The notes beneath the pieces were generated by a model. The model saw only the letters and a list, made by a program, of their open reading frames with translations, was not told the origin of the DNA and searched no databases. Positions 33,296 through 34,940 of a DNA stretch of 34,940 nt are shown here, piece by piece. Positions within the stretch are counted from its first letter, which is position 1. Every line of letters begins with the position of its first letter. The stretch spans positions 1 through 34,940 of the forward strand of contig JAKSLF010000029.1 in assembly GCA_024401355.1 (NCBI GenBank), given 5' to 3'. This DNA is from Bacteroidales bacterium. GTDB lineage: Bacteria; Bacteroidota; Bacteroidia; Bacteroidales; Marinilabiliaceae. The translations under genes and the position numbers were made by a program.

Positions 33296-34243
33296 ATGGC
33301 TAAGATCGCAAAAAAACTAACAGACCTTATTGGTAACACACCATTGCTCGAGCTCGCATCATTCAGCAAGCAGAAGGGCACCGTGACCAACGTGATCGCA
33401 AAACTCGAATATTTCAATCCACTCGGAAGCGTCAAGGACCGCGTGGCAAACGCAATGATAGAAGACGCGGAGAAGAGCGGACGCCTCAAGCCAGGCGCAA
33501 CAATCATAGAGCCAACATCGGGCAACACAGGTGTAGGACTTGCATTTGTATCGTCGGTAAAGGGTTACCACCTCATCCTGACGATGCCAGAGACCATGAG
33601 CATCGAGCGTCGCAACCTGCTGAAGGCACTTGGAGCAGAGATAGTATTGACACCAGGTGCAGCAGGCATGAAGGGAGCGATAGCAGAGGCAGAAAGATTG
33701 CGTGACTCGAAGCCAGGTTCAATCATACTTCAGCAGTTTGAGAATCCAGCGAACCCAGAGATTCACACACACACGACAGCTGACGAGATATGGCGTGACA
33801 CAGACGGCAAAGTAGACGTCTTTGTAGCAGGTGTTGGTACAGGTGGAACAGTCAGTGGTGTAGGCAAGCGCTTGAAGGAGCTTAATCCTAATGTAGAGAT
33901 AGTAGCAGTAGAGCCAGCTACATCGCCAGTATTGTCGGGTGGCCAGCCTGGACCTCACAAGATTCAGGGTATTGGTGCTGGATTTGTGCCAAAGACCTTC
34001 AACCGTGACGTTATCGACAAGATAATAACAGTAGACAATGACGACGCAATACGCACAAGCCGTCAGCTTGCGAAGAGCGAAGGACTGCTGGTAGGCATCT
34101 CGGCTGGTGCAGCGACATTTGCGGCATCGGAACTTGCGAAGAAGCCAGAGTACAAGGGTAAGAATATCATTGCGCTGCTTCCAGACACAGGCGAGCGCTA
34201 TCTCTCGACAATACTCTATGCATTTGAGGAGTATCCACTCTAA
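33296..34243 (+). CDS. cysK: Cysteine synthase A (O-acetylserine sulfhydrylase)
   Basis: Makes cysteine from O-acetylserine and sulfide with pyridoxal phosphate, in the cytoplasm. It has 315 residues, the family length. The PLP lysine is Lys47 (NPLGSVKDR). Other conserved parts are the substrate loop [11 protein letters not shown] (about 76-86), the PLP phosphate loop [13 protein letters not shown] (about 179-191) and the [13 protein letters not shown] block near 261-273. It is a single-gene unit with its own promoter and terminator. A CysM-type or cystathionine synthase activity cannot be fully excluded by eye, but CysK is by far the best reading. Confidence 0.95.
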
Positions 34244-34273
34244 TAGAATAGACACACGAGATAAAAAAAAAGG

Positions 34274-34315
34274 AAAGGAGATGAGGCTCAAAAAGAGTCT
34301 CATCTCCTTTTTTAA
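34274..34315 (+). terminator. cysK terminator
   Basis: A 16-pair stem with one G-U pair (arms 34274-34289 and 34295-34310), loop AAAAA, then TTTTT. Confidence 0.92.
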
Positions 34316-34635
34316 ATGTTAAATAGCAAGAAGCCTGTGCAAAAAAATATTTAAAAAAGACAGGAAATCGAGTTTGACAACTTTGACCATGACCAAAGTT
34401 AAATAGAGTTAAGAAAATGCCTTTTTTAATGAAGTCAGAAAGGTATGGTAAGGGTACGGTAAGGTACCGTTATCCCTCCGAGAAAAGTGTCTAAAGTCGA
34501 GGCGGCCTAAACCGTGAAATATTATTAAATATCATTAAACGAATAGCACTTAAATTAACATAGCGGATTGGCGTTTTAACAAATAAAAACATGGCTAATT
34601 TGGAGTATAGTGCAGAAAACGTGGAATGGTCACGG
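34316..34635. other. Intergenic region between cysK and the reverse transcriptase, with repeats
   Basis: This AT-rich stretch of 320 bases holds no convincing gene. It contains an inverted repeat AACTTTG/CAAAGTT (34379-34385 with 34394-34400), an 11-base direct repeat GGTAyGGTAAG (34442-34452 and 34453-34463), and a hairpin ACGGTA/TACCGT (34456-34461 with 34465-34470). A 20-codon frame at 34591-34653 has an A-rich leader but overlaps the end of the reverse transcriptase, and I do not call it. Nothing here looks like a coding-derived template repeat. Confidence 0.5.
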
Positions 34636-34938
34636 TCAAAATGTCAAAGTTGATTTTGGGGGTGGCAACACATACTTTTGCCATACGGTGTCGAAATCGC
34701 CATGATGCCACACATGATTCATCCGCCCGAACATACTGCGGCGGATGGCATAGCTCCTATAATGCCCCAGCACTCCGCCAAACGACGAGAGCGTATCGCG
34801 CAGTTTTATTGGCAGATTGTCGTCGGCTCTGTGCTCCATGGCATAGCGGTCGAGAGCGATGACTTTGCGACGCATGCGCTTTAGAGTGCTGTTGCGCACA
34901 TACATGCGCCATGGCTTGAGATAGGCGCCAAGGAATTC
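34636..34938 (-). CDS. Reverse transcriptase, C-terminal part only (possible DGR type)
   Basis: The frame enters from the right edge and is open there; about 100 residues are visible. The first in-window residues, EFLGAYLKPWRMYVRNSTLKR, match the piece that follows the palm domain in bacterial reverse transcriptases (usually FLG...KP.R.Y). LRDTLSSFGGVLGHYRSYAIRR further on matches the C-terminal thumb-like S..S.LG...HY.SY..R pattern, which I associate most with diversity-generating retroelement enzymes. The catalytic YxDD motif would lie outside the window. Group II intron or other bacterial enzymes remain possible. It runs towards cysK and no terminator was found for it. Reverse transcriptase identity is likely; the subtype is uncertain. 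Confidence 0.68.
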   Translation of the reverse strand, partial: EFLGAYLKPWRMYVRNSTLKRMRRKVIALDRYAMEHRADDNLPIKLRDTLSSFGGVLGHYRSYAIRRSMFGRMNHVWHHGDFDTVWQKYVLPPPKSTLTF

Positions 34939-34940
34939 GA

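Follow-up and report, generated by a model that had tools for sequence, protein, structure and literature searches.

The window analysed here, a whole stretch of 34,940 nt of Bacteroidales DNA, ends in an open minus-strand frame, and the question raised by this locus is whether the frame is the tail of a reverse transcriptase (RT) belonging to a diversity-generating retroelement (DGR) and, if so, whether that element is chromosomal and intact. The original prediction, made from the letters alone, took the frame for the end of an RT gene, and both of the peptides that it quoted are encoded there (Table 1). The stop codon, TGA, occupies 34636-34638, and the frame stays open up to the window edge. 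The window is the whole of contig C22 of the source genome (G000; 2.92 Mb in 69 contigs, 85% complete), which ends at base 34940; thus, the RT gene cannot be extended in the assembly.

Table 1. Coordinates of the features discussed in the text. Positions without a locus handle are those of the window.
Feature	Position	Strand	Remark
C-terminal 100 codons of DGR-type RT	34636..34938	-	5′ part beyond contig end
Copy of MITE-like ~295-bp dispersed repeat	34364..34660	+	right end overlaps RT stop codon
Left imperfect terminal inverted repeat of MITE, AAATCGAGTTTGACAACTTTGACCATGACC	34365..34394	+	
Right imperfect terminal inverted repeat of MITE, reverse complement AAAATCAACTTTGACATTTTGACCGTGACC	34628..34657	-	
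Cysteine-synthase-like gene	33296..34243	+	convergent with RT
Gene for ~170-aa exported-looking protein	L225:6644-7156; L224:4348-4860		similar gene ends in L061, L063, L231, L057

Five of the 15 genomes of the genus, the source genome included, matched the RT tail (E ≤ 1e-3). The tail also matched phrog_1423 ("Reverse transcriptase"; E 1.1e-5), and its alignment with an intact congener RT had an E value of 1.5e-29. Thus, the frame is not a chance one. The 100-aa tail alone found nothing meaningful in Pfam, NCBIfam, PADLOC or the PDB, and neither an RT body nor a template repeat (TR) was found in the 85%-complete assembly; part of the case for a DGR therefore rests on sister species.

Full-length homologues of the tail, 47-57% identical to it, were found in three congeners (G002, G010 and G011) as ORFs of 395-509 aa, the 509-aa length counting an upstream extension. 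The window holds the RT tail only, and the YxDD and SQ motifs were read in the congener homologues. L011, L012 and L014, all full-length RTs of congeners, contain YVDD and IGNLTSQ. Across the 52 RT loci examined, in which some records were counted twice (e.g., L012 and L126), [IL]GNLTSQ was found in 50 (the exceptions, L151 and L190, are short ORFs), and YxDD was also found in 50 (missing in L144 and L151). YxDD, for which the original prediction looked to the full-length protein, is therefore present in the congener homologues. Excerpts of PMC3521204 give (I/V/L)GxxxSQ as a signature of DGR RTs.

The order of genes in G010 (contig C33) is a target gene with a variable repeat (VR) at its 3′-end, a 185-aa MutS-I-like accessory gene, TR and RT. 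The order is the same in G011 (C27), in which the target is truncated by the contig start, and G002 has TR, RT and part of the accessory gene. The TR lies directly 5′ of the RT in the congeners and encodes runs of asparagine (AAC). When TR L032 was compared with G010 VRs, mismatches fell at TR adenines in 22 of 22 (L036), 24 of 24 (L038) and 27 of 31 cases (L042), and in five more distant VR-like regions in 32/53, 23/67, 20/69, 32/61 and 28/60. For TR L033 and G011 VRs, the counts at adenines were 24/25 (L037) and 31/31 (L039); six further regions had 27-30 of 53-67 mismatches at adenines, and L040, itself a TR, had 9/44. G011:C10 carries a second TR, L040, next to a separate RT (L015); mismatches to L040 were at adenines in 24/24 (L052), 26/28 (L045) and 24/27 (L050) for G011 VRs and in 28/34 (L048) and 27/30 (L051) for G010 VRs. 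For the closest VRs of the L032 and L033 TRs and the G011 VRs of the second TR/RT pair, the adenine bias had P values of 1e-10 to 2e-17; distant VR-like regions in G010 and G011 showed a partial bias relative to the TRs compared. The adenine-biased near-repeat that had been anticipated close to the RT was thus found in sister species, with TR and VR ~1 kb apart, whereas the TR of the source genome itself was not.

Searching the source genome with the sister TR peptide gave 13 VR-like places, each of which was compared with three sister TRs (P values are for the best of the three, uncorrected). Differences were at adenines in 27/40 (L019), 23/37 (L020), 26/36 (L021) and 27/34 (L024) cases (P 2.6e-5 or less), the other 14 of the 37 differences in L020 being at non-adenine positions. 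The bias was weak in L022, L023, L025, L028, L029, L030 and L031 (best P 2e-4 to 3e-2), and L026 and L027 had zero adenine bias relative to the three sister TRs. With two VR-like regions unbiased and seven weakly biased, some FISUMP paralogues may not be live targets. Several of the source genome's own targets nevertheless seem to bear DGR footprints, judging from the adenine counts. More than one VR-like region was present in the proteins on C56 (455 aa, two), C23 (711 aa, two) and C34 (804 aa, three). The three-VR C34 target passed the FISUMP (TIGR02145) cut-off and the C56 target scored below it; both were above the Lcl_C cut-off. The G010 target had zero matches when scanned against Pfam, and profile searches of the PDB with accessory and target alignments gave zero matches. 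The structure model of a target protein (pLDDT 46) was too poor for judging a C-lectin fold. The target proteins are predicted to be exported. A stretch of C52 (41-223) was considered as a TR and rejected, as its codons are diversified rather than AAC-rich; it is a VR.

YVDD, IGNLTSQ, the adjacent adenine-rich TR and the VR differences confined almost wholly to adenines in congeners all point to the window tail being that of a DGR RT. We are confident that it is the 3′-end of the RT gene of a chromosomal DGR of an uncultured gut Bacteroidales, the kind of RT that had been proposed originally. By homology to established DGRs, reverse transcription of the TR RNA would introduce errors opposite adenines, and the mutated cDNA would replace the VR of target genes; in FISUMP/Lcl-type domains, the AAC (asparagine) codons of the TR could then turn into nearly any NNC codon. 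The dispersed target genes of the source genome, some with two or three VR-like regions, would be the likely recipients in trans. The source cell presumably holds an intact RT and TR, and close relatives appear to use the RT for rewriting small parts of exported-protein genes.

RT tails were also found without an RT body, next to a RAYT-like gene. This gene had a weak match to Y1_Tnp (E 0.0068, below cut-off), and we assign it to the RAYT kind chiefly on the basis of motifs and palindromes. In G011:C25 and G009:C6:19619, it is directly followed by the 3′ part of an RT gene, and at G009:C6:46958 by short RT-tail pieces. On the source genome's C52, the end of a VR target is followed, in this order, by palindromes, RAYT, ~15 RT-tail-like bases, MITE and a glycosidase-like gene. 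The RT-tail-like bases lie at the same junction as at the other RAYT loci, and the RAYT-to-RT-tail junction is common to three species. In G011, target L039 and its palindromes lie at the end of C15, which has a 55-base overlap with the end of C25, suggesting that the two contigs may form one locus with target, palindromes, RAYT, RT tail and glycosidase-like gene. L039, the target at this RAYT-occupied locus, differs at adenines only from the TR of C27, as expected under diversification in trans. More distant RAYT loci that were fetched (~57% identity or less) had flanks without a DGR part. At G009:C6:43500-50000 (L224), an upstream gene, palindromes and a RAYT with RT-tail pieces were observed with no target between, possibly a case of target excision. 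In addition, a gene for a ~170-aa exported-looking protein repeatedly ends just upstream of DGR targets, with palindromes between; its product is a possible partner of the target protein.

When the cassettes of G010 and G011 were compared, most 100-base blocks from the target to approximately RT codon 315 were 98-100% identical, the lower blocks being target-gene 101-200 (85%) and the two that hold the VR (82% and 90%). Past codon 315, identity drops to 79% and then to 63-69%. The groESL genes of the two species are 86.8% identical. Differences between the cassettes numbered 19/474 in the target before the VR, 28/180 in the VR, 0/180 in the TR, 4/558 in the accessory gene and 3/924 in the first 924 bases of the RT. 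The window RT tail and the G009 orphan tail share 129 bases at 94.6% identity; the background between these two genomes is 74% in the cysK stretch and 80-82% in the groEL stretch. From these identities, we infer that DGR parts may move between species, with a boundary within the RT 3′ region.

The alternative that survives best is that the window tail is itself a remnant, the RT body having been lost beyond the contig end and the source genome's VRs being either undiversified now or diversified by another RT. The orphan tails directly 3′ of the RAYT-like gene in G009 and G011, the similar arrangement on C52, and an assembly that yielded neither RT body nor TR are all in keeping with such a loss. 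However, the window frame is open and extends ~37 codons beyond the orphan-tail junction in the 5′ direction, the tail shows 57% overall identity to an intact RT, and the contig breaks ~10-14 codons from the G010/G011 cassette boundary, which would be a plausible site for an assembly break. We consider a remnant unlikely, and the tail of a DGR RT that continues beyond the contig end is the preferred reading.

The observation that the 320 bases downstream of this RT hold no template-like repeat was consistent with our results; that stretch is itself a MITE-like repeat. The element has the features by which a MITE is defined: ~295 bp, imperfect inverted ends of ~30 bp and many dispersed copies. 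In the source genome, 40 of 62 candidates were scored as matches (39 besides the window copy), so that 40 is a minimum, and the scored copies were 68-89% identical to the window copy; the consensus was built from 26 copies. None was found in 14 congeners at E ≤ 1e-10. Because the repeat overlaps the RT stop, the last RT codons (..KSTLTF) lie within it. On C52, a further copy adjoins the RT-tail remnant and is oriented to the tail just as the window copy is. An Rfam search over 33300-34940 gave three matches, all far below gathering scores, so that no known RNA family was matched by the repeat. Beyond the repeat lies the cysteine-synthase-like gene, which we take to be cysK. We saw no DGR part in 19 congener loci with a cysK or groES match, taken with flanks of ~1.5 kb.

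Residence in a prophage is very improbable. A full-length congener RT has a relative in 102 of 50,697 phage records (the top one 36.9% identical over 90%), but the tail itself matched 2 of the 50,697 at E up to 1, the best of them 29% identical over 76%. Moreover, the window RT lies near groESL-like and cysK-like genes, the congener cassettes lie, by eye, beside metabolic genes, and no phage genes were recognised by eye among the window ORFs. The chromosomal position favored in the original prediction is thus retained as far as the window reaches, with the housekeeping-type neighbors and the weak phage-record matches of the tail both in its favor. That the tail comes from another RT class (group II intron, retron or defence RT) has next to no probability: although the best NCBIfam model for the full-length homologue is a group II RT/maturase and 73 PADLOC models match it, nearly all RTs among the matches listed, the score of congener L012 against that model (TIGR04416), 105.8 bits, is far below the cut-off of 300, its motif 4 is IGNLTSQ instead of the QGxxxSP type, its best PDB sequence match, 8ub7_A (125.8 bits; second match 33.9 bits, a maturase RT), is far ahead of the group II and retron types that the original prediction had named as alternatives, relatives have adenine-biased TR/VR pairs, and the AbiP2-type RT on the source genome's C69 differs from the window RT. 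This second RT (G000:C69:9512-10066; L009, ORF 1075-2739) matched AbiP2 in PADLOC with E 2.8e-163 and is likely a phage-defence RT unrelated to the DGR.

RAYT/REP systems have a Y1-type transposase gene and GTAG-headed palindromes inside and around it. The palindrome unit counted here, GTAGAGACG(6-16)CGTCT, was defined after the target loci had been seen. Sixty 20-kb stretches of G000 and G011 (1.2 Mb) were searched; the sample was non-random, and some stretches were picked because they held targets already known. Four of the stretches contained ten units between them, each no more than ~270 bp upstream of a target-gene start when the chosen ATG is counted as the start of the C46 target. The 51 G000 and G011 stretches in which no target was recognised (1.02 Mb, including one with a weak VR-like region, C5) had zero units, and so did twelve stretches of G010 (0.24 Mb), 1.26 Mb in total. 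A unit was present within 300 bp upstream or 1 kb downstream of 10 of 26 target genes (from 27 loci listed, two without an assigned target gene). The 16 without a unit nearby include the SSTP-type genes of G000:C34 and G011:C10, as well as that of G011:C27, the upstream side of which is truncated by the contig end. In one of the 10 palindrome-bearing targets, G000:C62, the VR-like region lacks adenine bias. The RAYT loci of G009, at which we saw no target gene, carry units as well. An invertible promoter was considered for the upstream palindromes and judged less likely, the paired short palindromes downstream and inside RAYT fitting REP/BIME better.

In this genus, target genes could travel as REP-flanked cassettes, dispersed and deleted by the RAYT, an HUH transposase, and by the REP palindromes standing between target and former RT tail, while recombination within the RT 3′-end exchanges RT/TR cassettes among species. 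We put this forward as a tentative reading that is rather doubtful. The clustering of units, the shared RAYT-to-RT-tail junction and the target-less G009 locus support it; the 16 of 26 unit-free targets, the unbiased region of G000:C62 and the post hoc definition of the unit weaken it. So does the shared upstream sequence, because one duplicated palindrome-bearing unit may explain part, or even much, of the pattern. Our literature search found no DGR target genes tied to RAYT/REP elements in print. If the reading is true, hypermutation and the dispersal of targets would be the joint work of two mobile systems.

The 185-aa product of the accessory gene weakly resembles domain I of MutS. Among six homologues, Pfam MutS_I was above cut-off in L059 and L130, below it in L058, L131 and L133, and absent in L128. 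In the AlphaFold model (mean pLDDT 82), the 12 best Foldseek matches were MutS-type with E 0.05-0.11, and no match was below 0.001. No free-standing Avd was seen between target and RT in the G010 and G011 cassettes. In a goat rumen MAG (L133:2461-3183), one accessory protein combines the MutS-I-like domain with an Avd-like part, which matched phrog_3206 (E 3.5e-6) and scored below cut-off against Pfam bAvd. The MutS-I-like product may thus take the place of Avd.

To our knowledge, the spread of DGR cassettes and the way in which one cassette serves many targets are little understood. The genus offers a natural series in these respects: cassettes that species have in common and that differ most in the VR, loci at which a transposase occupies the RT position and the target keeps adenine-only changes, and targets beside transposase palindromes. 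Diversification in trans and the dispersal of targets are therefore directly testable here.

As a DGR, the element is of a known kind. As far as excerpts of PMC4159848, PMC3521204 and PMC6642488 describe them, DGRs with FISUMP/DUF1566/FGE-type targets share with it the SQ-motif RT, the RT-adjacent TR, the adenine-specific TR/VR differences and targets of the FISUMP kind. Unlike those, the cassettes here have a MutS-I-like accessory gene between target and TR, where no free-standing Avd was seen, and some targets have REP palindromes and a RAYT-like gene next to them. Multiple or tandem VRs in one ORF and remote targets are already on record in the excerpted text of PMC3521204, PMC6642488 and PMC10907252. 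A parallel to the degenerate loci is Thiohalocapsa PB-PSB1, in which, according to excerpts of PMC10907252, MITE-like arrays replaced the RT at DGR 4 and 5. There, too, degenerate loci retain a target and have mobile repeats in place of RT or TR, diversification in trans is considered, and tandem VR domains occur in one target. Thiohalocapsa PB-PSB1 belongs to another phylum, and its mobile sequences, in the same excerpts, are MITE-like arrays and IS elements, whereas here one RAYT clade with its palindromes is involved and the RAYT-to-RT-tail junction is common to three species. The Bacteroides DGRs that act on type V pilus tips, in the excerpted text of PMC12632263, are likewise from gut Bacteroidales and concern surface or exported proteins, but the targets here belong to the FISUMP/Lcl_C proteins, and the three that were scanned (two from the source genome and one from G010, the latter being the one without a Pfam match) contained no pilin domain. 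RAYT/REP systems have the same kind of transposase gene and palindromes, but here, in the sampled stretches, the palindromes are clustered at DGR targets rather than scattered.
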